From Paludibacteraceae bacterium (GTDB lineage Bacteria; Bacteroidota; Bacteroidia; Bacteroidales; Paludibacteraceae): a stretch of DNA of 64,000 nt. The DNA is taken from assembly GCA_017439235.1 (NCBI GenBank), contig JAFSJN010000016.1, positions 1 through 64,000 on the forward strand, written 5' to 3'. Below, one piece after another: positions 29,069 to 42,164 of this stretch. The notes beneath the pieces are model-generated. The model did not search any database and was not told where the DNA came from. It saw nothing but the letters and a program-made list of their open reading frames with translations. Made by a program: the position numbers and the translations under genes. Numbering within the stretch: the stretch's first letter is position 1; each line of letters opens with the position of its first letter.

Positions 29069-30143
29069 ACTGTTTGAGTAGTTGGTTGGCAGCAATAAAG
29101 CTGGACACTTCGTTGTTGAGTACACGTTGTTCGGCGCGTTCGATGAGGGGCTCCATGTCTGGATTTTGGTAGAAGCCGTTGAGTAGGTGGGCATTGATGG
29201 TCTCGTACATCCAGTACTTAGCCTGTTCGGTACGGTGTGCCTCAAAATACCCGTTCGCGCGCGTATACCTTATATATTCCTCTATCATGCGCCATACATC
29301 CTGTATGCCGGTCTTCTCGGTTGACGAGCAGGTCTCGGCATAGGGTTTCCATCCGGATTGGGTAGGCGGGAAGAGGGCAAGGGCGTTCTTAAAGCTCACG
29401 CGGGCGGCTTGAGCACGTTCTATGTTGTTGCCGTCGCATTTATTGATAGCTATACCGTCCGCCATCTCCATGATGCCTCGTTTGATACCTTGCAACTCGT
29501 CGCCGGTGCCTGTTACCTGCAGCAGCAGGAAGAAGTCGACCATCGAGTGGGCGGCGGTCTCGGATTGTCCTACGCCTACCGTCTCCACCAGTATAGTATC
29601 GAATCCTGCGGCCTCGCACAGCACTATCGTCTCGCGTGTCTTACGGGCGACGCCGCCTAACGAACCGGCTGACGGGCTGGGGCGGATAAACGCGTTGGCC
29701 TGTGTACTCAGGTCGTTCATGCGGGTCTTGTCGCCCAATATAGAGCCTTTGCTGCGTTCGCTGGAGGGGTCGATAGCCAGTACCGCCAAGTGCTTGCCTT
29801 CCTGACAAAGATGGGTGCCTAATGCCTCAATAAAGGTGGACTTACCTGCACCCGGCACGCCGGTTATTCCTACACGAATGGACTTGCCTGCGTACGGTAA
29901 GCACTGTTCGATGACTTTTTGCGCCACAATCTGGTCAGCAGGCAGACTCGACTCCACTAAGGTGACAGCCTGGCTGAGCAGCGTGATATCGCCGCGCAGT
30001 ATACCCTCCACGTACTCTTCGGCCGTGCGTACTTGTTTGCGCCGGCGGAAGGTAGCATAGGGGTTGACTTGCGGCAGGTTGGCTACGCCTTCGTTGACCG
30101 TCAAGCCTTTGTATTCCTCACTATTTTCCGGATGGTCAATCAT
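29046..30143 (-). CDS. meaB: Methylmalonyl-CoA mutase chaperone GTPase
   Basis: A 365-residue G3E-family GTPase (MeaB/ArgK) that protects and reloads adenosylcobalamin-dependent methylmalonyl-CoA mutase. P-loop GVPGAGKSTF, the signature AIDPSSERSKGSILGDKTRM, switch region ETVGVGQSE, and base-recognition NKCDG are all present. The start is ATG 30143, overlapping the upstream stop as TAATG; an earlier ATG exists at 30158. The mutase itself is not in the window. It implies a B12-dependent succinate-propionate route. Confidence 0.93.
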   Translation of the reverse strand: MIDHPENSEEYKGLTVNEGVANLPQVNPYATFRRRKQVRTAEEYVEGILRGDITLLSQAVTLVESSLPADQIVAQKVIEQCLPYAGKSIRVGITGVPGAGKSTFIEALGTHLCQEGKHLAVLAIDPSSERSKGSILGDKTRMNDLSTQANAFIRPSPSAGSLGGVARKTRETIVLCEAAGFDTILVETVGVGQSETAAHSMVDFFLLLQVTGTGDELQGIKRGIMEMADGIAINKCDGNNIERAQAARVSFKNALALFPPTQSGWKPYAETCSSTEKTGIQDVWRMIEEYIRYTRANGYFEAHRTEQAKYWMYETINAHLLNGFYQNPDMEPLIERAEQRVLNNEVSSFIAANQLLKQYGEYKNK

Positions 30144-31204
30144 TATTGGATGGTCCAATGTATGTTGATGGTGCGGATAGGATTCTTCGGGTCGTTGGTG
30201 ATGATGGTTATCTGACGCTCGTAGTCACCGGGCTCCAGACCTTGGGTCATCACTTCAAACTTAATATCTTTCTTGCCGGCTTTGATAGGCGCTTTTACGG
30301 CTTGGAAGCGTATATTGTCGGCATCGATGATGCGGCGGATAGCCAGGGGTGTCGAACCGGCGTTGACGATACGCAGGGCGGCTTTGGCTTTCTTGCCGTG
30401 AGCCAGTATACCCATTTGCATCTCGGTTTCTATCTCGGCGATAGGAGCCTGCAAGAGTTGGTCTTCGGTGAGTTTACTGAAGTCCTCGCGTACGTCAGCC
30501 GTTACGTTGATGGCGTAGGCGGGATCGGCCTTGCCGTTGACGCGCAGCAGGACAGTCTGCTGTACGGGGCCGTACATGGGGCAGGCGTTAGCATCGAATT
30601 GCACCATCAGCTGACCCGACTTACCGGGCTCGATGGGGTTGAGGGTTGCCTGAGCGTAAGCGTAGGCGGCATCCTGTGTCTCTACAGTTACGTTCTCCTT
30701 AGTCTGGTTGGCGTACTCGATGAATTTCTGTGCTGTCTCGCCTTTGTTGACGGTACCGAAGGCTATCTTGTCGGCCTTCAGACTCAGTTCGCCGAAGGTG
30801 ACGGCATAGCGGTTGACGGGTTGTGCCGAACGGGGAATAACCTCACCCTTGATGAAGATACGCATCGTCTGTTCGGTAGCGTTAGAGGTGACGGTAATCG
30901 TCTTCTGGAACTTACCGGGACGACCGTTGGGGTTATAGGTCACGGTTATCTCGCCTGTCTGTCCGGGTTCGATAGGGTTGTGGGGCCATTTGGGAGTAGT
31001 GCATCCGCAACTGGCGCGCACGTTGGACAGTACTAATGGCGACATACCTTGATTGGTAAAGGTAAAGACGGTAGTTACGCGACCGTCGGCTTCGTTAATC
31101 TTACCGAAGTCATGGGTGGTCTTGTCAAAAGTGATGACCGGGTCTTGGGCTAACATCGCTACTGCTACAGTAGCTAAAGCCATTAAGGATAACAATTTTT
31201 TCAT
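30143..31204 (-). CDS. DUF1573 exported protein
   Basis: A 353-residue exported protein with signal peptide (1-19, ending MLAQ) and three immunoglobulin-like segments. The first is a clear DUF1573 domain: ITFDKTTHDFGKINEADG, then VSASCGCTT-type 'RASCGCTTPKWP' and GEITVTYNPNGRPGKFQKT. DUF1573 domains are common in Bacteroidota envelopes with no fixed function. It is coupled to meaB by TAATG, which may be only packing. Confidence 0.85.
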   Translation of the reverse strand: MKKLLSLMALATVAVAMLAQDPVITFDKTTHDFGKINEADGRVTTVFTFTNQGMSPLVLSNVRASCGCTTPKWPHNPIEPGQTGEITVTYNPNGRPGKFQKTITVTSNATEQTMRIFIKGEVIPRSAQPVNRYAVTFGELSLKADKIAFGTVNKGETAQKFIEYANQTKENVTVETQDAAYAYAQATLNPIEPGKSGQLMVQFDANACPMYGPVQQTVLLRVNGKADPAYAINVTADVREDFSKLTEDQLLQAPIAEIETEMQMGILAHGKKAKAALRIVNAGSTPLAIRRIIDADNIRFQAVKAPIKAGKKDIKFEVMTQGLEPGDYERQITIITNDPKNPIRTINIHWTIQ

Positions 31205-31216
31205 TGTTCTGTATGT

Positions 31217-32971
31217 TTATTTAGTTATTCGTTCAACAGTATTGATGGATGGTATCTCTTCCAGGGCGTTGCACAGGTGCTCTATGGTCATTCGGTCATA
31301 GAACCATATCTCTAATTGGCATTCTATATGTCCGTCTGTATTGGTGATGTGCAGGTCGCGTATGTTGAGGTGCATGGTCTCGGATACGGCGGTCAGGATG
31401 TCTACCAATAATCCGAAGCGGTCGTCGGCCGTCAGGGCAATGGTAGCCGTGAAGGGTTGTATGGGTTGCGTCTCCTCTATTGCTCCGCGTCGGTTGCAGA
31501 AACGTTTGATAGCCTGCTGCGCTTTGGCGGTCACCACCATGTTGAGCCATTCGGGCTTGGGTGATTCGCTTTGCGAGGTGAGTATCTCTATCTGGTCGCC
31601 GCTATGGATGAGGTAACTGGCGGGTTTGACTTCGTGGTTGACCTTAGCGCCAATACAATGGTCTCCTACCTCGGTATGCACCATATATGCGAAGTCGAGT
31701 ACGGACGACTGTTGCGGCAGCACTTTTATCTCGCCGTTGGGGGTAAAGGCATATACCTCGTGGCTGAAGAGGTTGCGGCGGAAGGTGTCTAAGAAGGCCA
31801 TAGCGTCCGTGTCGGGATGCTCCAATACGTCTCGTAGTCCCTGTAACCATTTATCCAACTCGGTGCTCTCCTGTGCGCCGGTCTTGTATTTCCAATGGGC
31901 GGCAAGTCCGTGTTCGGCTATCTCGTGCATGCGGTCGGTACGTATCTGCACCTCTACCCATTGTCCGTCATTGCTCATCACCGTTACGTGGAGCGCCTCG
32001 TATCCGTTGGCTTTAGGCGTCGATATCCAGTCGCGTATGCGTTCGGGATGGGGAGGATATATCTCCGTGATGGCGGCATAGAGTATCCAGCACTGGTCTT
32101 TCTCCGACATAGCCTCGTTGGGCGTGAAGACGATACGCACGGCCATGAGGTCGTATACGTTCTCAAAGGGCACGCCTTTGGTCTGCATCTTCTTGTATAT
32201 CGAGTATACCGATTTCAGGCGCGCCGACAGCGTGTAGTGATAGCTCAGACTCTCCAATTTGAAGCGTATAGGCTCCATGAATATCTCTAAGTTAGCCATC
32301 TTAGCCAACTTGATAGAGTCTAACTTATCGGATATCTCTTTATATTCTTTGGGATTGGTATAGCGGAAACTCAGGTTCTCCAGTTCGCTCTTGATGGGGA
32401 AGAATCCCAGACGGTGGGCGAGGGGAGCGTATATGTATTGCGTCTCTTCGGCTATCTTTTTCTGCTTCTCGGGCGCTTGTGCGTCTAAGGTGCGCATGTT
32501 GTGCAGTCGGTCGGCTAATTTGATGAGCACCACGCGTATGTCGTCGGACATGGTGAGCAGCAGTTTGCGGAAGTTCTCGGCCTGCTGACTGGCTTTATCG
32601 GCAAATATGCCGCCGCTTATCTTGGTCAGTCCTTCTACTATGCTGGCAATCTTTTCGCCGAACCGGTATCGGATATCTTCTACCGTATAGTCGGTATCCT
32701 CGACTACGTCGTGCAACAGCGCGGCACATATACTGGTGCTGCCCAGTCCTATCTCGCTCACTACTATCTTAGCTACGCTGAGGGGATGCATGATATAGGG
32801 TTCTCCGCTCAGTCGTCTCACGCCGTAGTGTGCCTGGTTAGCGAAGGTGTATGCACGCTGGATGATCTCCACTTTTTGCCGGTGTGGAGTATGCGCATAC
32901 GCGTCTAACAGGTCATCAAAAGCTGCTTGGATCTGCTGTTTCTCTTGCTCTGTGAATTCACTCGATTTCAT
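31217..32971 (-). CDS. RelA/SpoT-type (p)ppGpp hydrolase/synthetase lacking zinc-finger region
   Basis: 584 residues against about 735 for a usual long RSH enzyme. The HD hydrolase domain is intact (H62, HD at 87-88, ED at 91-92). The synthetase domain is intact by motif (SARLKSVYSIYKKM, YDLMAVRIVF, NGYEALHVTV, VEVQIRT, AAHWKYK), and TGS follows (VYAFTPNGEIKVL). The chain then goes from QAIKRFCNRRGAIEE straight to an ACT domain (ALTADDRFGLLVDIL, 510-584). The alpha-helical and zinc-finger (ZFD) domains that contact the ribosome are missing. The start could be ATG 32974 or 32971. A second, complementary RSH gene lies at 38933. Confidence 0.9.
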   Translation of the reverse strand: MKSSEFTEQEKQQIQAAFDDLLDAYAHTPHRQKVEIIQRAYTFANQAHYGVRRLSGEPYIMHPLSVAKIVVSEIGLGSTSICAALLHDVVEDTDYTVEDIRYRFGEKIASIVEGLTKISGGIFADKASQQAENFRKLLLTMSDDIRVVLIKLADRLHNMRTLDAQAPEKQKKIAEETQYIYAPLAHRLGFFPIKSELENLSFRYTNPKEYKEISDKLDSIKLAKMANLEIFMEPIRFKLESLSYHYTLSARLKSVYSIYKKMQTKGVPFENVYDLMAVRIVFTPNEAMSEKDQCWILYAAITEIYPPHPERIRDWISTPKANGYEALHVTVMSNDGQWVEVQIRTDRMHEIAEHGLAAHWKYKTGAQESTELDKWLQGLRDVLEHPDTDAMAFLDTFRRNLFSHEVYAFTPNGEIKVLPQQSSVLDFAYMVHTEVGDHCIGAKVNHEVKPASYLIHSGDQIEILTSQSESPKPEWLNMVVTAKAQQAIKRFCNRRGAIEETQPIQPFTATIALTADDRFGLLVDILTAVSETMHLNIRDLHITNTDGHIECQLEIWFYDRMTIEHLCNALEEIPSINTVERITK

Positions 32972-32990
32972 CATTCTGCACAACAATCGT

Positions 32991-33022
32991 GCAAAATTAC
33001 AAAATTTTTTGCATATGTCAAA
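32991..33022 (-). promoter_or_regulatory. Promoter of first RSH gene, overlapping divergent promoter
   Basis: On the minus strand TTTG (33019-33022), 19 bases, TAATTTTGC (32991-32999). It shares 33008-33022 with the plus-strand promoter of the porin-like gene, so the two probably exclude each other. Confidence 0.65.
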
Positions 33023-33039
33023 ATAAAAATGTACTTTTG
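33008..33039 (+). promoter_or_regulatory. Promoter of porin-like gene
   Basis: TTTG (33008-33011), 20 bases, TACTTTTG (33032-33039). The leader to ATG 33069 is about 25 bases and T-rich. Confidence 0.65.
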
Positions 33040-33068
33040 TCTCCGATTTTGTAAGATTTTAATTTTTT

Positions 33069-34502
33069 ATGCGCAGAATAACTTTCTCTCTCTTGGTTCT
33101 TTGCACCTTGCTCCTGGCTCCCTTATCGGCTCAGGAGGTAGCTAAGGATGTTAAGAAAGCCGCCGTTAAGAGTCACCTCAAGCAGCATTTCAAACCCTAT
33201 GGGTTTATTCGCAACTATTTTGCCTACGACTCGCGTGAGTCGATGTCGGGTACGGGTGACCTGTACTATTTCCAACCTTATGATGTCAACTATAACGTCA
33301 CGCCGGAAGAGGCAGCGGCTACGGGTGTCAAGCGTGAGGACTTGAATGCTGTTTCGTCGTTCCGTTTCCTGTCTATCACTACGCGTCTGGGTTTGGATAT
33401 CGTGGGCTATAAATGGCGCAATACCGAGTTTGGCGCAAAGGTCGAAGTCGACTTCTATGCCGCCCTGACGGGTACGGTCCATAAGGCCAATGGTGCGGCG
33501 CTGTTGCGTCTGCGTCAGGCGTACCTCACGCTGGCGTGGGACAGTCTGCGTATGAATGATAAGGACTATGCTCGTGTGGACCTGTTGTTAGGTCAGGCGT
33601 GGCATCCTATGGCGGCGGATCTGAGTGACGTCATCGCCCTTAACTCGGGTGCTCCCTTCGGTCCTTTCAGCCGTACGCCTATGGTTAAGATGGACGCTCG
33701 TCTGGGTAAGTATGTCACCCTTACGGGTGCAGCTTTGTGGCAGATGCAGTATATGTCGCTCGGTCCTAAGGGCAGTTCGGCGGAGTATATAGCTTATTCT
33801 AAGACGCCGGAAGCTTATCTGGGACTCAGTATCCACGATCGCGGTTTCCTCATGCGTGTCGGAGCCGATGTGCTCAGTATTTGTCCGCGTGTGACGGGTG
33901 CGGCATTAGACTCGGTGCTGCAGCCTATCATGGGTACCGACGGCGCGGTGCAGGTGACCGTCTCCGACCGTATCACTACCGTCACGCCTTTCCTGTATGT
34001 GCAGTATAAACACGGCGATTTCTCTATTAAGGCTAAGACCGTCCTGGCCGAGGCGGGTGAGCACCTGAATATGAACGGCGGTTACGGCGTCAGTAAGATT
34101 AAGCCCGGCGGCTCGTATGAGTATACGCCTACGCGCACTTCGAGTACGTGGGTTAGTCTTGTCTATGGGGGCAGGGTAGGTCAGCAGGAGGATAAGCATC
34201 CCCAGATGCTACAAGGTATCCTCTTTGGAGGATATATCCGCAATTTCGGAACTACTCACTCGCTTGTCAGTGCCGACCTCTTTTACTATCCGCGCGTAAC
34301 TAATCTCAACCGTATGTGGCGTCTGACGCCGACTTTGCTGTATACGGTAGGTCGTTTCCAACTGGGTCTCGAGTACGAGATAACCTCTGCGCAGTATGGC
34401 GATGCCGCTTTAGGTCTCAACCTCTCCAACGGCCTTGCCGACCGCGGCCTCCACTGGGTCACCAACCACCGTCTGCAACTGATGACGAAGTTTAACTTCT
34501 GA
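33069..34502 (+). CDS. Porin-like outer-membrane beta-barrel protein
   Basis: A 477-residue protein with signal peptide (1-21, ending LSAQ), alternating polar and aromatic beta strands throughout, and a terminal Phe (LQLMTKFNF), the usual outer-membrane insertion signal. It starts with a short Lys-rich helix (about 22-42), then YGFIRNYFAYDSRE. The layout is like DcaP-type trimeric porins with an N-terminal coil, but I do not recognise the family firmly. It is transcribed alone, divergent from the first RSH gene. Confidence 0.65.
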   Translation: MRRITFSLLVLCTLLLAPLSAQEVAKDVKKAAVKSHLKQHFKPYGFIRNYFAYDSRESMSGTGDLYYFQPYDVNYNVTPEEAAATGVKREDLNAVSSFRFLSITTRLGLDIVGYKWRNTEFGAKVEVDFYAALTGTVHKANGAALLRLRQAYLTLAWDSLRMNDKDYARVDLLLGQAWHPMAADLSDVIALNSGAPFGPFSRTPMVKMDARLGKYVTLTGAALWQMQYMSLGPKGSSAEYIAYSKTPEAYLGLSIHDRGFLMRVGADVLSICPRVTGAALDSVLQPIMGTDGAVQVTVSDRITTVTPFLYVQYKHGDFSIKAKTVLAEAGEHLNMNGGYGVSKIKPGGSYEYTPTRTSSTWVSLVYGGRVGQQEDKHPQMLQGILFGGYIRNFGTTHSLVSADLFYYPRVTNLNRMWRLTPTLLYTVGRFQLGLEYEITSAQYGDAALGLNLSNGLADRGLHWVTNHRLQLMTKFNF

Positions 34503-34518
34503 TAGATTTAGGTGTGCG

Positions 34519-34908
34519 TTATTTTTTCGTGAGAATAATCGTCTGCGGGCTACCGTAGAGCGTTATTTGTACAGTCATGGTTTTGGTCCTCAGATCGTAG
34601 GTGCCGGAAATGGTGTCGCCGACTTTCACCTGTCCATCGGCATCACCGGTAACGTTGATAACGGTTACGAAGAAGTTAGGTTTGCTTTCCTTATATGCAC
34701 CGCGAATAGTGCCGACAGCATAGCCGGACATCGTTATGTAGCACTCCTCATCTACGAAAGATGCTTCTATGTCCGTCAGTTCGATGGTTCCTGCCCACTT
34801 AGTGCCATCCAGGTCACTACTCTTGGCAGTTGAGTCGTTTTTCTCACAACCGGTAAAAGTCAATCCTAATAGGCAAAAGAATGCCATAATGAGATGTTTT
34901 GTGCTCAT
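34519..34908 (-). CDS. Small lipoprotein of unknown function
   Basis: 129 residues with lipobox FTGC (Cys 21), a short polar linker, and one small beta-sheet domain (GTKWAGTIELTDI, GYAVGTIRGAYKE, GDTISGTYDLRTKTMTVQI). The pattern resembles lipocalin-like META/DUF lipoproteins of Bacteroidota, but I cannot name a family. A -7 element (TACCTTTGC, 34948-34956 on the minus strand) lies 40 bases before the ATG. Confidence 0.7.
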   Translation of the reverse strand: MSTKHLIMAFFCLLGLTFTGCEKNDSTAKSSDLDGTKWAGTIELTDIEASFVDEECYITMSGYAVGTIRGAYKESKPNFFVTVINVTGDADGQVKVGDTISGTYDLRTKTMTVQITLYGSPQTIILTKK

Positions 34909-34961
34909 AATCGTTGATTTTTAAATATGGAACAATGTTTTCACGCTGCAAAGGTACAACT

Positions 34962-35603
34962 TTATGCCGCTCTGGCGCGGAAAGAGGTGTAAGGAGTAAG
35001 GATGGGGCGCAATCCCAAGCAGGATGAGTTGAGCGGTTGGAAGGTTTGAACAAGACCGCTATGCCGACTGAAGACAGACGGCTGTGAGGACAGAAGACGG
35101 ATAGTAGCAGAAGTAAGTTCAATAGAGGTTTCTGCATTTTTAGCCGCCTCGCGAAGGGATTGATAGATAGCGTTATATACGAAGGTGTAGAAGTGGGGAT
35201 AGAACTTCTTTTCAGGGTCTGGATGATAGTATTGCGAGAGGAAGCGCACGCGCCAAGGGAGAGCACGAACGGGATCGTGTTCGAGATCATGCGCCTGACG
35301 GCGTGCTTTGGCTTGGAGGGCACGATTGTCAAGACAGCCTTGAGACCACTGTCTTGGCTTATTCAAAACGTATAGGACATGCAGTCCCGGGTGACGACGC
35401 GAGGGTCGAAGGATGATGTTTTTATTGAAATGATCGGCCTCTCGAAGCAGGTTTACGGCACCACGAAATGTTTTGATAGCATCGGTGAGTTGGAAGTACA
35501 TCGCTCCAGAGGATTTGGAGCCCGGAGAGGTGCCTATATGAACGATGGAGCCGATGGTAGCCCTCACGCGCTTAGAAATTTGTGTTTTTAGATGTTTTCC
35601 CAT
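34962..35603 (-). CDS. Basic hypothetical protein
   Basis: 213 residues, strongly basic in the first 150 (KHLKTQISKRVRATIGSI, RPSRRHPGLHVLYVLNKPRQ, ALQAKARRQAHDLEHDPVRA) and then FYPHFYTFVYNAIYQSLREAA. The last 40 residues are low in charge and look like unselected tail. I do not recognise it. The charge would suit a nucleic-acid-binding protein; that is only inference. A canonical promoter sits 138 bases upstream, leaving a long, partly self-complementary leader (35604-35740). Confidence 0.5.
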   Translation of the reverse strand: MGKHLKTQISKRVRATIGSIVHIGTSPGSKSSGAMYFQLTDAIKTFRGAVNLLREADHFNKNIILRPSRRHPGLHVLYVLNKPRQWSQGCLDNRALQAKARRQAHDLEHDPVRALPWRVRFLSQYYHPDPEKKFYPHFYTFVYNAIYQSLREAAKNAETSIELTSATIRLLSSQPSVFSRHSGLVQTFQPLNSSCLGLRPILTPYTSFRARAA

Positions 35604-35740
35604 ATTTTTAGTTAAAGTTTAAGTTGTTGATAGTTTGAGGTTTATAGGTTACAATTTTGTTAAAAGTCTAGGATTCGCGGGACCAGGTCCGCTTCCGGGG
35701 TTGGAAATGGGCAGGAAGGGTCTCCTTCACGAATCCGAGT
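35604..35740 (-). other. Long structured leader before basic protein gene
   Basis: The 137-base leader, read on the minus strand, begins with GGATTCG and about 50 bases later has CGAATCC, which can close a stem. Inside it GGACC and GGTCC form a second short hairpin. The rest to the ATG is A-rich with no structure. It could host translational control. No known riboswitch consensus was recognised. Confidence 0.3.
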
Positions 35741-35773
35741 GCAAAGGTATAAAAAATAATTGACATATGCAAA
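35741..35773 (-). promoter_or_regulatory. Promoter of basic protein gene
   Basis: On the minus strand TTTG (35770-35773), 20 bases, TACCTTTGC (35741-35749), an exact -7 consensus. Confidence 0.7.
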
Positions 35774-35859
35774 TTTTCGGGGAACAAAAATTCATCAGAA
35801 ATGTGAGAAAATGAGTGTTTTGCGTGCGTAAGTGATTGATATGAACAAGAAGTATGAAA

Positions 35860-35915
35860 GATGAAAAAAGTATGCAAAAAAGTAAAAAGATGAAAAAAGT
35901 ATGCAAAAAAGTAAG
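35860..35915. repeat. 29-bp tandem duplication upstream of rSAM operon
   Basis: The block GATGAAAAAAGTATGCAAAA at 35860 recurs at 35889, period 29. It lies immediately before the promoter at 35921. Reading frames crossing it (Lys-rich on one strand, Phe-rich on the other) are artefacts of the composition. Confidence 0.75.
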
Positions 35916-35920
35916 AAAAA

Positions 35921-35953
35921 TTTGCAGATGTGGAAAAAAAGTTGTACATTTGC
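35921..35953 (+). promoter_or_regulatory. Promoter of rSAM/lipoprotein operon
   Basis: TTTGC (35921-35925), then TACATTTGC (35945-35953) after 20 bases from TTTG. The leader to ATG 35998 is about 40 bases. Confidence 0.7.
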
Positions 35954-35997
35954 AGCGGAAATCCTCACAAATAGATAACGAAACAACTTGTACCGCT

Positions 35998-36441
35998 ATG
36001 AAAAAAGTTCTACTTACTCGTATCAATGCCATTATAGCCTTTCTGCTGACGGTTTTAGGATTTGGCAGTTGTAACCGCAATGAACCTGCTGAACCACGGG
36101 TAGCATACGGAGTTCCGTACGCAACATTCGAAGCCGCCGGTAAAATTACCAACGAGCAGGCGCAACCCGTAGAGAATATCAACGTACGTGTAATGTACCC
36201 ATGGAATCATTGGTCTTTTCTGGAGCAATATACTGACGCTGAGGGGGAATATCTTGTTTCTACAGACGCTTATAAAATCTCCGATTCGGTTGACATTGTC
36301 GTCACGGACACGGCAGGTATCTACCAAGGCGATTCGGTACGCGTCAAGGTCGAATATGACCGTTCCGGCGTAGAAATAGAGGACTATTGGAATGAAGGGA
36401 AAGGCCTTGTCTACCACGATTTCCAATTGAAGAAAAAATGA
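35998..36441 (+). CDS. Radical SAM-associated putative lipoprotein
   Basis: A 147-residue lipoprotein with lipobox GFGSC (Cys 25). The sequence YGVPYATFEAAGKITNE after the linker is the hallmark of the lipoprotein member of the 'rSAM/lipoprotein system' families; it starts a carboxypeptidase-regulatory-like beta domain ending in YHDFQLKKK. The radical SAM gene follows with ATGA overlap. The assumption for this family is that the rSAM enzyme modifies the lipoprotein; this is not proven. ATG 35998 is chosen because it starts the signal peptide just after the promoter. Confidence 0.82.
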   Translation: MKKVLLTRINAIIAFLLTVLGFGSCNRNEPAEPRVAYGVPYATFEAAGKITNEQAQPVENINVRVMYPWNHWSFLEQYTDAEGEYLVSTDAYKISDSVDIVVTDTAGIYQGDSVRVKVEYDRSGVEIEDYWNEGKGLVYHDFQLKKK

Positions 36442-37508
36442 ATTTCCGCCGTAAATTAGCTCTGTGGTTGGAGAAACTACGACGGAACAACCTAAAACAA
36501 CTTCACCCACTTCGTCAGCTCTTTTGGGAATCGACGCTTCGTTGTAACGTCCATTGTCTACATTGTGGTAGCGACTGCATAGCATCCACAGAGACACCGG
36601 ATATGCCGGCAATGGATTTTCTGCACGTTATTGATACAGAGATTACCCCGCATGTCGATCCGCACAAAGTGATGGTCATCATTTCCGGCGGTGAGCCTCT
36701 AATGCGCAAAGACTTGACAGATGTCGGTCGTGCATTGATGCAACGTGGTTATCCATGGGGTATGGTGACGAATGGTCTGGCACTAACGGAGAAGAAATTC
36801 TTCGAACTCAGGCAAGCAGGGTTACGTTCTCTTACTATCTCTTGTGACGGCTTGGAAGAAGACCATAATTGGCTTCGCCAGCATCCTTTAGCATTCGAAA
36901 GTGCCACACGTACCATTCGACTCTGTGTTGCCGAAAAAGGTCTCGTATGGGATGTCGTCACCTGCGTCAACCAACGCACGATTAATCATCTGCCCGCTAT
37001 CCGTGATATGCTTTGGTCTCTCGGCGTTTGTGACTGGCGCGTGTTTAGCATCGACCCTATGGGACGCGCTGCTGAGAATCCAGAACTTATCCTTAGCGAC
37101 GACCAGTTCCGTTATCTGATGGACTTCATTGTCGCGGAACGTGAAGCCGGGCGTCAGGTATCCTACTCATGCGAAGGCTATTTGGGAGAATATGAAGGCC
37201 GTGTGCGTGACCATCTTTACCATTGTGCAGCGGGTATTTCTATTGCTTCCGTTCTTATCGATGGTTCTATCTCCGCTTGTACCTCTATTCGCGGCAAGTA
37301 CTATCAGGGAAATATATATCGCAACTCGTTCTGGGATATTTGGGAACATGGTTTCAAACCTTATCGCGACCGCACCTGGATGCGCCAACTTGAGCCTTGC
37401 AAGAACTGCAAAGTCTTCTCTTTCTGCGAAGGGAACGGCATGCATCTTCGCCGCGAAGATGGCTCGCTGATGCTCTGTCATTTGCATCGTTTAACACCGC
37501 ATTCGTAG
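36438..37508 (+). CDS. Radical SAM/SPASM-like enzyme of rSAM/lipoprotein system
   Basis: A 356-residue enzyme. The [4Fe-4S] ligands C36, C40, C43 (CNVHCLHC) and SAM-binding ISGGEPLMRKD define the radical SAM core. The C-terminal part has Cys residues in a SPASM-like order (HCAAG, then DGSISACTSIRGKYYQGNIY, then CKNCKVFSFCEGN and a final Cys near 350), suited to auxiliary iron-sulphur clusters. Such enzymes modify peptides or proteins. The coupled upstream lipoprotein is the natural candidate substrate. No transporter or protease of a RiPP pathway is nearby. Confidence 0.88.
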   Translation: MNFRRKLALWLEKLRRNNLKQLHPLRQLFWESTLRCNVHCLHCGSDCIASTETPDMPAMDFLHVIDTEITPHVDPHKVMVIISGGEPLMRKDLTDVGRALMQRGYPWGMVTNGLALTEKKFFELRQAGLRSLTISCDGLEEDHNWLRQHPLAFESATRTIRLCVAEKGLVWDVVTCVNQRTINHLPAIRDMLWSLGVCDWRVFSIDPMGRAAENPELILSDDQFRYLMDFIVAEREAGRQVSYSCEGYLGEYEGRVRDHLYHCAAGISIASVLIDGSISACTSIRGKYYQGNIYRNSFWDIWEHGFKPYRDRTWMRQLEPCKNCKVFSFCEGNGMHLRREDGSLMLCHLHRLTPHS

Positions 37509-37566
37509 GGCAAAGAAAGAAGCATCGTAAAATTAGTCCTATTGTATTTTTGTACGATGAGATTAG

Positions 37567-38091
37567 TTACTGAAAGAAACTGAAATGGACGCTGCCGTAG
37601 GTGCGTGTCTCGACATGGCGGGGATGGTCCGTGAAGTCGTTATCCTTACCATGCTCGAGGATAAACCAGCCCTCGTCCTTGAGGTGGGGTAGTACGAGGT
37701 CGGGCAACTCAGCCAGACGCTCCAAGGCGTAGGGAGGATCGGCATAGATAACATCATAGCGCACGCGGTCGGCACTAAGGAAACGGAAGACATCACCGCG
37801 CACGAGGTTGAGGTTGCGGATGCCCAGCTGCTTGCAGGTAGAGATAATGAAGTTCTGCTGCACATGCGCCATCTCCACAGCCGTCACACTACGTGCACCC
37901 CGCGACACAAACTCCAGTCCTATACCTCCCGTGCCGGCAAACAGGTCCAGCATGTCGATGCCCTCGAAGTCCAGACGATTGGTCAAGAGGTTAAACAGCG
38001 ACTCCTTAGCAAAGTCCGTCGTGGGCCTGGCTGTTATATTTTTAGGGGGCGACAAGCGCCGCCCCCTATATGTGCCGGAGATAATCCTCAT
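37567..38091 (-). CDS. rsmD: 16S rRNA (guanine966-N2)-methyltransferase
   Basis: 174 residues. The N-terminus RIISGTYRGRRL and the region TTDFAKESLFNLL are RsmD signatures. The SAM site is DLFAGTGGIGLEF, and the catalytic motif is DPPY in VIYADPPYAL. It methylates G966 of 16S rRNA during small-subunit assembly. Its start overlaps the upstream stop as TAATG. Confidence 0.94.
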   Translation of the reverse strand: MRIISGTYRGRRLSPPKNITARPTTDFAKESLFNLLTNRLDFEGIDMLDLFAGTGGIGLEFVSRGARSVTAVEMAHVQQNFIISTCKQLGIRNLNLVRGDVFRFLSADRVRYDVIYADPPYALERLAELPDLVLPHLKDEGWFILEHGKDNDFTDHPRHVETRTYGSVHFSFFQ

Positions 38092-38846
38092 TACTCCCAG
38101 TTACCTGCGTTATTATTAGGCGCGATAATGTCGCCCACCTTAAGTCCGGGATAGTGGTCGAGTTTGGTCTCGCGGTCGATGAGGTTGACACGCTCCTGGT
38201 TATCGAGGTCGTGCAGATAGGTGTCATAGTGAGCACGCATCTCCATCAAGGGCACGCGGATACCCTGAGAGGTAGTATAGGTATTGTTCACCTCTACTTC
38301 GTAGCGCAGATTGTCGGTATAGGGGATATAGACGATATCACCGATATTGTCGGCATCGTATTCGCCCTTATAGAGAACGGCAATCATATTCTCATAGATA
38401 GTATCACGACGGAAACCTTGCAGGCCGTTGTTCTTAATCTCACGGTCGTTAGCCCAGATATACTCGTAGAGAGCATCCTTATCGGCATCCTTCATCTTAG
38501 CTTTCGCCTTAGCCAAGGCGCGCTCCAGCATCTTAGTAGCCTTATACTCGGTCAGACCGGCTTCCAACTGCTTATCGGAGAGGCTTCCTTCCTTCATCAC
38601 CTCTTTCTTAGGCGTAGTCTTGAGGAAGAGGATAAGCGAATCCAGGTCGGCCGTATAGTGCCCCTTAATCAGTTTATACTCAGCTTGAGCCGTACGCAAC
38701 GCTACCAGGTTCTTAATAACCGCTGCCTCGCGCTCCATGCGCTTCTCTTCAAATTTGATAGGGGTAACGACACTGTCTATGCATACATAAGCCAAAAACA
38801 ATGCTGCTATACCCAAAAGGATACGATAGATGATTTTTGCTTTCAT
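38091..38846 (-). CDS. Single-pass membrane protein of unknown function
   Basis: 251 residues: an N-terminal membrane helix (about 5-25), then a helical segment AAVIKNLVALRTAQAEYKL that superficially resembles the stalk of type IV pilin-like proteins, a Lys/Ala-rich coiled section (105-130) and a beta-rich C-terminus with YIPYTDNLRYEVEVN. No prepilin cleavage site is seen. It is coupled to rsmD. ATG 38846 is chosen because the sequence upstream contains the promoter. Confidence 0.65.
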   Translation of the reverse strand: MKAKIIYRILLGIAALFLAYVCIDSVVTPIKFEEKRMEREAAVIKNLVALRTAQAEYKLIKGHYTADLDSLILFLKTTPKKEVMKEGSLSDKQLEAGLTEYKATKMLERALAKAKAKMKDADKDALYEYIWANDREIKNNGLQGFRRDTIYENMIAVLYKGEYDADNIGDIVYIPYTDNLRYEVEVNNTYTTSQGIRVPLMEMRAHYDTYLHDLDNQERVNLIDRETKLDHYPGLKVGDIIAPNNNAGNWE

Positions 38847-38871
38847 TTTGGTATAATTTTTGTATTTGACT

Positions 38872-38904
38872 GCAAAAGTACAATTTTTTTTTTGTATGTG
38901 CAAA
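38872..38904 (-). promoter_or_regulatory. Promoter of membrane protein/rsmD operon
   Basis: On the minus strand TTTG (38901-38904), 20 bases, TACTTTTGC (38872-38880). It overlaps the divergent promoter of the second RSH gene across 38891-38904. Confidence 0.65.
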
Positions 38905-38921
38905 TTTTTTTGTACTTTTGC
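38891..38921 (+). promoter_or_regulatory. Promoter of second RSH gene
   Basis: TTTG (38891-38894), 18 bases, TACTTTTGC (38913-38921). ATG 38933 is 11 bases on, so the leader is at most a few bases. Confidence 0.65.
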
Positions 38922-38932
38922 ATCGATTTTAT

Positions 38933-40249
38933 ATGGAAGATAGCAACAAAGTATTATTTGACATCCTAAATGAGCGCCTCGAACTGATGCGTCGTCTGGA
39001 TAAAGAAGGGGACAGCACCTACCGTCGTCATGTAGCTCGTGAGACATCCGAACTGCATGCCCAGTTGGCGCACCGTCTAGGTCTGTACCAGATAAAAACG
39101 GAGATGGAAGATCTCGCCCTTAAGTTCACCGATTACGACACCTTTAAGTATATCGCGCGTGCGCTGAATGCCAAGAAGTCGGAACGCGATGCGTATATAG
39201 AGCGTTTTATAGCCCCGATAGCCCAAAAACTGACCGAGGCAGGCTTCGTCTTTACTATCAAAGGTCGTCCCAAATCCATCCACTCCATCTACCATAAGAT
39301 GCAGATGCAGCATTGCGATGTGGATAAGATATACGACCTGTTTGCCATACGTATCATCCTGGACTCGCCGCCCGAGCGCGAGAAGAGAGACTGCTGGCAG
39401 GTCTACTCGCTCATCACCGACGTCTTCCAACCCAATCCCAAACGCTTGCGCGACTGGCTGAGCGTGCCTAAGGAGAACGGCTACGAGAGCCTGCACACGA
39501 CCGTCTTGGGTCCCGACGACCGATGGGTAGAGGTGCAGATACGTTCCCGCCGTATGGACGAGGTTGCCGAGCAGGGCGTAGCCGCACACTGGGCATACAA
39601 AGGCGTCAAAGGCAATATAATGCATACAGACAAACAGTATGTATACGTCTTCACGCCGCAGGGTGACCTGAGACGTCTGCCCGCCGGAGCTACCATACTC
39701 GACTTCGCCTATTCGATACACACCGAGATGGCCGGCCATTGCGTGGGCGGTAAGATATTGGGTAAGTTAGTCCCCATCCGTCATGAGGTGCAGAACGGCG
39801 ACCAGATAGAGATACTCACCTCGGCTCAGCAGCACCCCAACAGAGACTGGTTGAGTTTTGTCGTCTCCCACCGTGCCCGCAATAAGATAAAGCAGGCAAT
39901 CGCCCGTATGGAGGCCGAGAACGGGCCGGAGGTATACGAGTCGGTACACAACCAACGCGAGAACCAGGAGGCACAGAACACTCCCGCTCCCGCCGCTACA
40001 GTACATAAGAACGGAACACAACTGACACCCAATACGCCTATGTCGTTAGAGGTCACCAACCTCAGCGGCGTCGACTTCCACCCCGCCAGTTGCTGTAACC
40101 CGCAACCCGGTGACCCCATCTTCGGCTTTATCAGCGTCACCAAAGGTATACGTATCCACCGCCAGGACTGCCCCAATGCGTCCTATATGCGTGAACGATT
40201 CGGATACCGCGTCATCCCTGCCCATTGGAAGGAGAAAAAAGAAGAATGA
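38933..40249 (+). CDS. (p)ppGpp synthetase lacking HD and ACT domains
   Basis: 438 residues: synthetase domain (HRLGLYQIKTEMEDLALKF; GRPKSIHSIYHKM; YDLFAIRIIL; NGYESLHTTV; VEVQIRS; AAHWAYK, about 45-235), TGS domain (VYVFTPQGDLRRLPAGATI, about 245-310), a short Pro/Asn-rich linker, and a zinc-finger-type RSH domain (HPASCCNPQPGD...IRIHRQDCPN; C387, C388, H409, C413). It begins where a full RSH would leave the HD domain and stops before an ACT domain. It should make but not degrade (p)ppGpp, and retains the ribosome-contacting part missing from the enzyme at 31217. Confidence 0.88.
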   Translation: MEDSNKVLFDILNERLELMRRLDKEGDSTYRRHVARETSELHAQLAHRLGLYQIKTEMEDLALKFTDYDTFKYIARALNAKKSERDAYIERFIAPIAQKLTEAGFVFTIKGRPKSIHSIYHKMQMQHCDVDKIYDLFAIRIILDSPPEREKRDCWQVYSLITDVFQPNPKRLRDWLSVPKENGYESLHTTVLGPDDRWVEVQIRSRRMDEVAEQGVAAHWAYKGVKGNIMHTDKQYVYVFTPQGDLRRLPAGATILDFAYSIHTEMAGHCVGGKILGKLVPIRHEVQNGDQIEILTSAQQHPNRDWLSFVVSHRARNKIKQAIARMEAENGPEVYESVHNQRENQEAQNTPAPAATVHKNGTQLTPNTPMSLEVTNLSGVDFHPASCCNPQPGDPIFGFISVTKGIRIHRQDCPNASYMRERFGYRVIPAHWKEKKEE

Positions 40250-41513: not shown

Positions 41514-42164
41514 ATGGGAAATGACCAGTTAGTAAATAGTGCGTTGTTGTCGGATGCGGTCAGTCAGTTTGCCTCGTTGCCGGGGCTGGGTCGCAAGACA
41601 GCCTTGCGTCACGTGCTTAGTCTGCTCCGTCGCTCCGATGCCGAAGTGGAGGCCTTTGCCAATACGCTGACGCGACTCAAACATGAGGTGCACTATTGCC
41701 GCGTATGCCATAATATATCGGATGCCGAAGTGTGCCCTATATGCCTCTCGCACCACCGCGACCACCATACAGTATGCGTGGTGGAGAATATACGCGATGT
41801 GATGGCTATCGAGAGTACGGGACAGTATAACGGCGTGTACCACGTATTGGGCGGCATTATATCGCCTATGGACGGCATAGGACCGCGCGACATAGAGATA
41901 GACTCGCTCATCGCCCGTATCGAGCCCGAACAGATAAAAGAGGTCATCCTGGCTCTGCCCACGACGATGGAAGGTGATACGACGAACTTCTATATTTATA
42001 GAAGGATACAGAGTACGGACCGCTTTGCCGACAGCATACAGACGGGTGCTCTGCGCGTATCGCAGATTGCACGAGGTATAGCAGTAGGCAACGAACTGGA
42101 ATATACCGACGAGATAACCCTCGGACGGTCCATAGTGAACCGTGTAGAATATAAACAAGCATAA
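41514..42164 (+). CDS. recR: Recombination protein RecR
   Basis: 216 residues. A helix-hairpin-helix ([16 protein letters not shown]) is followed by a C4 zinc finger ([16 protein letters not shown]) and a Toprim domain ([15 protein letters not shown], then [15 protein letters not shown]). RecR loads with RecO or RecF at gapped DNA to help RecA displace SSB. The N-terminal extension is about 10 residues longer than common; the alternative start at the second Met (codon 4, no; next ATG inside) is not better placed. The first gene of a run reaching to rnhB. Confidence 0.94.

Follow-up and report, generated by a model that had tools for sequence, protein, structure and literature searches.

The 64,000-nucleotide stretch analysed here (the window; positions 1 to 64,000 of contig JAFSJN010000016.1, Paludibacteraceae bacterium, assembly GCA_017439235.1) contains two genes of the RelA/SpoT homologue (RSH) family, whose enzymes synthesise and degrade the starvation signal (p)ppGpp; the two are called A and B below, each of which lacks domains of the long RSH enzymes. 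The window lies on contig C10 (G, C and L numbers are our labels for genomes, contigs and loci) of a draft genome of 1.49 Mb, composed of 23 contigs and 76.9% complete. The two genes and their domains, with positions in the window, are:

31217..32971, minus strand: gene A, an RSH of 584 amino acids with the order HD-synthetase-TGS-ACT, SpoT-like, with bifunctional motifs
32402..32854, minus strand: HD hydrolase domain of A, checked residues HHDEDDN intact
31877..32221, minus strand: RelA_SpoT synthetase domain of A, checked catalytic residues intact
31577..31756, minus strand: TGS domain of A, conserved His retained
31457..31576, minus strand: TGS-to-ACT junction of A, 40 residues, where the helical and zinc-finger domains are missing
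31229..31456, minus strand: ACT domain of A (Pfam)
38933..40249, plus strand: gene B, a synthetase-TGS-zinc-finger RSH of 438 amino acids, RelA-like, with neither HD nor ACT
38966..39085, plus strand: HD-region remnant of B (HD_4 positions 117-155), helices leading into the synthetase
39263..39604, plus strand: RelA_SpoT synthetase domain of B, checked catalytic residues intact
39641..39820, plus strand: TGS domain of B, conserved His retained
39923..40036, plus strand: low-confidence stretch in the structure model of B, replacing most of the helical domain
40052..40234, plus strand: zinc-finger (CC/RIS) domain of B, Cys-Cys-His-Cys kept, the protein ending four residues further on

The first-pass annotation, made from the letters of the window, had described A as HD-synthetase-TGS-ACT without the helical and zinc-finger regions, and a Pfam domain search confirmed this order, with matches to HD_4 (residues 40-190, 6.4e-50), RelA_SpoT (251-365), TGS (406-465) and ACT_4 (506-581). 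The start codon is ATG 32974 or 32971. RelA_AH_RIS, the Pfam model of the helical and zinc-finger domains, was not matched in A of the window and is present between TGS and ACT in the full-length relative L061. A scores above the TIGR00691 cut-off and, of the features of bifunctional long RSHs, possesses HD, synthetase, TGS and ACT and lacks the helical and zinc-finger domains. The seven checked HD residues (HHDEDDN), presumably metal-binding or catalytic, are intact in every A sequence of the genus, and the checked synthetase columns (R, K, S, D, Y, H, E, Q and R) are intact in the genus rows of both A and B, except for an Asp to Asn change in A of G044 (L100). The earlier statement that the catalytic motifs are intact in both proteins holds for the residues checked.

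B starts at ATG 38933; the queries made with B began at its second codon (38936). Pfam matched RelA_SpoT (110-223) and TGS (236-295) and found no ACT, and query residues 373-433 align with E. coli RelA in its ribosome-bound structure 5iqr (residues 599-659), retaining the adjacent Cys pair, the His and the last Cys. Pfam and this alignment agree with the original description of B as synthetase-TGS-zinc finger lacking HD and ACT, except that the tail of the HD region is kept: the last 39 profile positions of HD_4 alone align with residues 11-50, below the cut-off, and near B of the window no HD piece was found other than this tail within its frame. B scores below the TIGR00691 cut-off; of the RelA-type features it has the synthetase residues, TGS and the zinc finger, and it has neither an HD or pseudo-HD nor an ACT/RRM domain. 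Classification as a small alarmone synthetase was discarded, since TGS and the zinc finger are present. The structure model of B, locally good and globally poor (pLDDT 73.8, pTM 0.49) and used for domain presence only, has in the helical-domain region a single helix (312-328) and a stretch of low confidence (330-367). By E-value, 5iqr, the ribosome-bound RelA, is its top match in the PDB, with a TM of 0.39 on the query. The helical-region shortening of B recurs in G046/UBA1714, with an equally long match in UBA3810, while most of the helical domain is kept in 37 of the 39 truncated B rows. The claim that the pair together holds each RSH domain fails on this point, the helical domain being lost from A and mostly gone from B of the window.

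Relatives were compared in an aligned sample of 143 proteins, from 120 plus 20 fetched loci and the window, with A/B orthology assigned by score and gene order; it covers 67 genus genomes with a sequenced A, and genus B rows of which 39 are truncated and 18 full-length. A further survey of lengths and match ranges took in 63 genomes, partly overlapping the aligned sample. The best 80 relatives of B come from records whose titles read Bacteroidales, Paludibacteraceae or Bacteroidia bacterium; many of their sample names refer to ruminants and some to horses or pigs. The drafts are small (1.5-2.9 Mb). G058, with no long RSH found in an 86% complete assembly, was left out; the class of G075, whose A frame is likely cut by the contig edge, was left undecided; and G095, the single one of the 67 with full-length A and no B found, was treated as an assembly gap, as the B flanks were not found either, and retained as one row in the class counts and trees.

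Full-length A occurs with full-length B in 12 of the 67 genomes and with truncated B in 21. A lacking both the helical domain and the zinc finger (truncated A) is accompanied by truncated B in 17 genomes and by no detectable B in 10, and was found with full-length B in no sampled genome (0 of 18 full-length B). The remaining class, with six genomes, combines full-length B with an A that lacks the helical domain and keeps the zinc finger. The 63-genome survey is consistent with these counts; its two full-type B (G066 and G114, the latter with a frame that starts at a contig edge and extends well beyond the zinc finger) go with zinc-finger-matching A. The boundaries are uniform: from the end of TGS into ACT there are 62-69 residues in 27/27 truncated A, 146-152 in 6/6 helix-less A and 224-234 in the five full-length A listed, and truncated B proteins end shortly past the zinc finger.

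The six helix-less A (L067, L072, L100, L128, L143 and L150), which keep zinc finger and ACT, belong to a separate six-genome clade in which B is full-length in every case.

In 16 genomes of other families in the order, between one and three synthetase matches were found per genome; their open frames measure 717-827 residues, except for a 636-residue frame in G035 whose match lies at contig base 416 and is likely cut by the edge. Both paralogues being full-length in part of the genus and in outgroups, the splitting of one ancestral gene into two was rejected. On sequence grounds, A and B are two long RSH paralogues of Bacteroidales, a predicted bifunctional A and a predicted dead-HD synthetase B. 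The seven-residue HD set is complete in no genus B row, with single positions matching by chance; since even full-length genus B lacks the catalytic set, the HD domain lost from B was most likely already dead. It follows that hydrolysis was not divided between the proteins by these truncations, as had been supposed, and a clean split of synthesis is likewise contradicted by the intact synthetase in 27/27 truncated A.

The order of the losses was read from three trees. In the A tree, built from the HD-synthetase-TGS columns of 76 rows (six outgroup rows were excluded, namely four with degenerate HD that score nearer A and both G027 copies), the 27 truncated A rows form one clade (support 95), nested in a larger group whose B is truncated or absent (support 93), and the rows that lost only the helical domain make up a separate clade (support 98). 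In the B tree the 39 truncated B rows fall on one side of a branch with support 100. Truncation of B requires one change on the A tree and also on the rpoB tree (clade support 99; 56 rows, rpoB not having been found in 12 of 69 genomes including that of the window, and one fragment left unused), on which helical loss is also one change. B loss requires two changes on the rpoB tree (single-clade p value of the approximately unbiased test, p-AU, 0.035), while the A tree would allow a single group of the ten B-less rows. As reconstructed from these sequences, the reduction of B came first, that of A followed, in one event or a few, and the loss of B closed the series, with at least two such losses if the rpoB tree is correct.

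Both truncated forms are under strong purifying selection, as judged from ratios of non-synonymous to synonymous substitution rates (dN/dS) in pairs with identity >80% and dS <1.5, which are not independent of each other: 0.016-0.074 in truncated A (7 pairs) and 0.024-0.100 in truncated B (11 pairs), with a median of 0.094 in full-length A (32 pairs). The checked synthetase residues and the Cys-Cys-His-Cys of the finger are intact in 39/39 truncated B, one checked Gly of the finger being altered in two rows. Two promoter-like boxes lie close to the starts of the genes:

32992..32999, minus strand: TAATTTTG, resembling the -7 box of Bacteroidota promoters, just upstream of A
38913..38920, plus strand: TACTTTTG, a -7-box-like motif starting 20 bp upstream of the ATG of B

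With TAnnTTTG, which we take to be the consensus of the Bacteroidota -7 box, 32 of 39 truncated B genes carry a match at most 60 bp before the ATG (the ATG closest in the alignment to the start in the window), where 2.8 are expected from letter shuffles; a box at the start of truncated B argues that the missing HD is not hidden upstream. The relatives being largely draft metagenome assemblies, a frameshift, assembly error or pseudogenes might be suspected, but such an artefact is scarcely credible: sequences of separate assemblies (27 of A, 39 of B) share the same boundaries, selection is purifying, neighbouring genes are directly adjacent, and near B of the window no HD piece lies outside the in-frame tail. 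Common boundaries, selection and gene order led us to rule out frameshifts and pseudogenes, and the trivial explanation named in the first-pass annotation falls away with them. Neutral decay is a more serious alternative, in which the ribosome-coupled stringent response of these gut lineages is being dismantled and truncated B is waning without reciprocal specialisation. It would agree with a series that ends in the absence of B, with the further shrinkage of B in the window and in G046, and with the small drafts; against it stand the intact synthetase and finger residues, the box at the new start in most truncated B and dN/dS values of at most 0.10 in all 11 pairs, and we consider it unlikely.

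Of the 32 truncated B genes with a box, 20 have it starting 29-35 bp before the ATG; the box of the window ends 12 bp before the ATG of B, so that the leader would be very short.

The ten genomes with truncated A and no B are 78-98% complete. The site without B was located by means of two flanking genes:

38091..38846, minus strand: orf38, the conserved divergent neighbour of B, with no Pfam match at E 0.01
41514..42164, plus strand: recR, the downstream neighbour of B in many relatives

Both flanks were found in 10/10 of these genomes. In G051, G056, G061 and G103 orf38 adjoins recR without B, with 154-215 bp between the matched parts, and in G122 it adjoins orf40, B being missing. In G012, G016, G086 and G113 it adjoins a gene that we take to be glyA, and in G088 another frame; in these five genomes the site is rearranged, which by itself is no proof of deletion. 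A without B remains under purifying selection (dN/dS 0.046-0.074, three pairs among G012, G016, G086 and G113). In G005 (full-length A, 84% complete) no B was found, and the two flanks are on different contigs. In G088 (98% complete) and G061 (85%) truncated A is the single match to the synthetase and HD families, while in each of the other eight B-less genomes there is one further, weaker match to the synthetase family; the frames, of 235-378 residues, have the size of small synthetases, the shortest excepted.

These genomes bear directly on the suggestion that A and B pair with each other. As complementary halves, they would form a mixed complex through their synthetase and TGS parts, with B giving the zinc finger and A giving HD and ACT. 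The domain sets are indeed nearly complementary, and truncated A is seen only with truncated B or no B, but B is missing from 10 of the 27 truncated-A genomes, in five of them with its neighbours adjoining, so that a required pair is unlikely; moreover, A without B is still constrained, truncated B stands beside full-length A in 21 genomes, and the genes are not reliably linked. We hold such a complex to be decidedly improbable. The close linkage seen in the window, too, is not general: A and B lie on one contig in only 4 of the 38 sampled genomes with a sequenced A and truncated B (6 kb apart in the window, about 13 kb in G054, about 24 kb in G077 and about 115 kb in G002), and no conserved linkage of the pair was found.

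The reading that we consider probable is that A and B are paralogous long RSHs that underwent stepwise domain loss in place and divided their roles between them, the functional part being drawn from domain content. The sequences show the course of the losses: in the ancestor of one clade in the genus of the window, B lost its dead HD and its ACT; inside this truncated-B clade, A lost the helical domain and zinc finger; and from part of the truncated-A genomes B itself is missing. B would act as a RelA-like, synthesis-only enzyme reporting stalled ribosomes through TGS and zinc finger with no ACT brake, and A as a ribosome-free, SpoT-like enzyme, a balancing hydrolase that also carries a synthetase, with TGS and ACT tuning it. 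After duplication each copy may have shed the domains that served the job of the other, to the point where A alone can suffice and B is dispensable. What survives of the proposed division of labour is that reciprocal, selected losses have produced one enzyme with hydrolase and ACT and one synthetase with a zinc finger. In full-length A the helical and zinc-finger domains are the least conserved (mean pairwise identity 0.43 and 0.49, with ACT at 0.51 and synthetase at 0.80), and in full-length B the HD is (0.52 versus 0.88 for the synthetase). According to PMC7058999, the substitution R629E offsets the toxicity of RelA lacking RRM, the corresponding B. subtilis variant shows poor recruitment to ribosomes, and both weaken ribosome-linked activity. 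At the position of E. coli RelA R629, Lys is found in 37/39 truncated B and Gly, Asn or Thr in 34/34 full-length A, which may hint at a ribosome role for B.

Several observations weigh against this reading. At the R629 position a basic residue is present in only 6 of 18 full-length B and, among the 10 outgroup rows that lie outside the A tree, in 1; moreover, at this site the A alignment is gapped, some A rows having Lys or Arg one column earlier. In full-length B the ACT (0.66), later lost, is not the weakest part, the zinc finger and helical domains standing at 0.61-0.62, and in truncated A the ACT is the least conserved domain (mean identity 0.39), which argues only weakly for a tight sensing role. 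According to PMC7058999, RelA and Rel deprived of RRM/ACT overproduce (p)ppGpp in a ribosome-dependent manner, and such RelA is toxic in the laboratory; the loss of ACT from B would therefore need some compensation, and B may be easily triggered or restrained in another way. How often gaps occur can be judged from the 63-genome survey, where no A was found in 5 of the 50 B-bearing genomes (G047, 95% complete; G094, 90%; G003, 75%; G015, 78%; G018, 54%), drafts evidently dropping genes. For truncated A the rpoB tree demands three changes (a single clade, with p-AU 0.062, is not rejected) and the poorly resolved B tree four; the association between the forms of A and B rests on very few independent events, and rpoB was not found in the window's own assembly.

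For the B-less genomes a further step can be proposed tentatively, with rather less than even confidence in the reading as a whole: an uncoupled lineage of gut Bacteroidales in which B was reduced and then lost, a finger-less and helix-less A is left as the sole long RSH (and, in one near-complete genome at least, as the sole RSH altogether), and (p)ppGpp would be set through TGS/ACT metabolic signals and not by stalled ribosomes.

The genome of the window also encodes small alarmone enzymes, namely a synthetase and an HD hydrolase separated by about 2 kb on contig C1:

L003 1366-2403: small synthetase, 345 amino acids
L003 2400-3245: APH-like phosphotransferase
L356 1462-2052: small HD hydrolase, 196 amino acids

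Such a synthetase and hydrolase lie within about 3 kb in 16 of the 19 relatives with both matches, and it might be thought that they carry the alarmone response, with A and B secondary. This is very improbable in our view, for G088 and G061 possess neither small enzyme, their truncated A being the sole match to either domain. A third full-length RSH, which the first-pass annotation had named as a possible objection, was not found in the 76.9% complete assembly. A defence-system reading was set aside, as PADLOC PDC-S33 matched the synthetase region in all three synthetases of the window genome (E 2e-14 to 6e-9) and singles out neither A nor B. The cluster on contig C1 sits behind a SpoIIE-phosphatase/HATPase gene, and G015 has two matches of small-synthetase type (C3:13231 and C4:9674).

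Pairs of long RSHs are known from Bacteroidia as Rel and RshB (PGN_0465/PGN_1757 in P. gingivalis, BT0700/BT3998 in B. thetaiotaomicron; PMC6994654, PMC3153485). Like A and B, and fitting them by motifs, these are two long paralogues, one bifunctional and the other with an HD lacking key residues; unlike them, they are described as multi-domain proteins without such truncation in the accessible parts of both papers, which place the divergent HD on differently named copies. SpoT of Haemophilus ducreyi and Actinobacillus pleuropneumoniae resembles A in an internal deletion of the helical and CC domains with ACT kept, although, as portrayed in PMC3153485, these are rare exceptions in an unrelated lineage, the Pasteurellaceae, whereas the A form occurs in 27 sampled genomes with its partner truncated or missing; in the P. 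multocida pair all four C-terminal domains are present, according to PMC9045168. RelA of Francisella and Methylotenera is, like B, a synthesis-only long RSH without ACT, but ACT alone is reported missing there (PMC3153485), and B also lacks HD. SpoT of A. baumannii (Moraxellaceae) offers a further case of subfunctionalisation of the RelA/SpoT pair after duplication, though it keeps a pseudo-synthetase domain, whereas here whole domains are gone and the synthetase of A is intact (PMC9974481). In the open-licence literature searched, no account was found of an RSH with synthetase, TGS and zinc finger and neither HD nor ACT, nor of an ordered reciprocal domain loss in an RSH pair. The architecture of A and ACT-less RelA are already published; what makes the case interesting is the nested loss series together with its B-less end point.

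The domains of long RSHs are usually studied by means of laboratory truncations. The present genomes, of uncultured gut Bacteroidales, offer a natural nested series, running from the full pair, by way of a B deprived of HD and ACT and then an A deprived of helical domain and zinc finger, to the absence of B, which makes it testable which domains serve ribosome sensing, restraint and hydrolase control once the jobs are separated. B, an ACT-less RelA in nature, contrasts with the toxicity of equivalent laboratory cuts, and the end of the series may consist of bacteria living without a ribosome-coupled stringent response.

The gene neighbourhoods of A and B are conserved within the genus. Adjacent to A lies:

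30143..31204, minus strand: DUF1573 gene immediately downstream of A; meaB-like and dnaB-like genes come next

DUF1573 stands beside A in 65 of 66 fetched genus loci, the remaining one ending at a contig edge; meaB was found there in 63 loci. One or more of rsmD, orf38, recR and orf40 can be seen beside B in 17/18 full-length and 34/38 truncated fetched loci, the truncated loci without these neighbours being those of G017, G041, G043 and G083. None of these neighbours of A and B was found in the outgroup loci, so that the gene-order argument is valid within the genus only. In G066, orf38 lies beside A (L274), and the B locus (L273) has none of the usual B neighbours. Beside A of the window, positions 33069-34502 hold a frame of 477 residues without Pfam match at E 0.01. 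The rpoB match of G024 (C86:3322-7113) contains one in-frame TAG, possibly an assembly error. Finally, G027, of another family, carries two copies (L161/L160), one with intact HD and wrecked synthetase and the other with degenerate HD and no ACT, possibly representing a fully divided hydrolase/synthetase pair.

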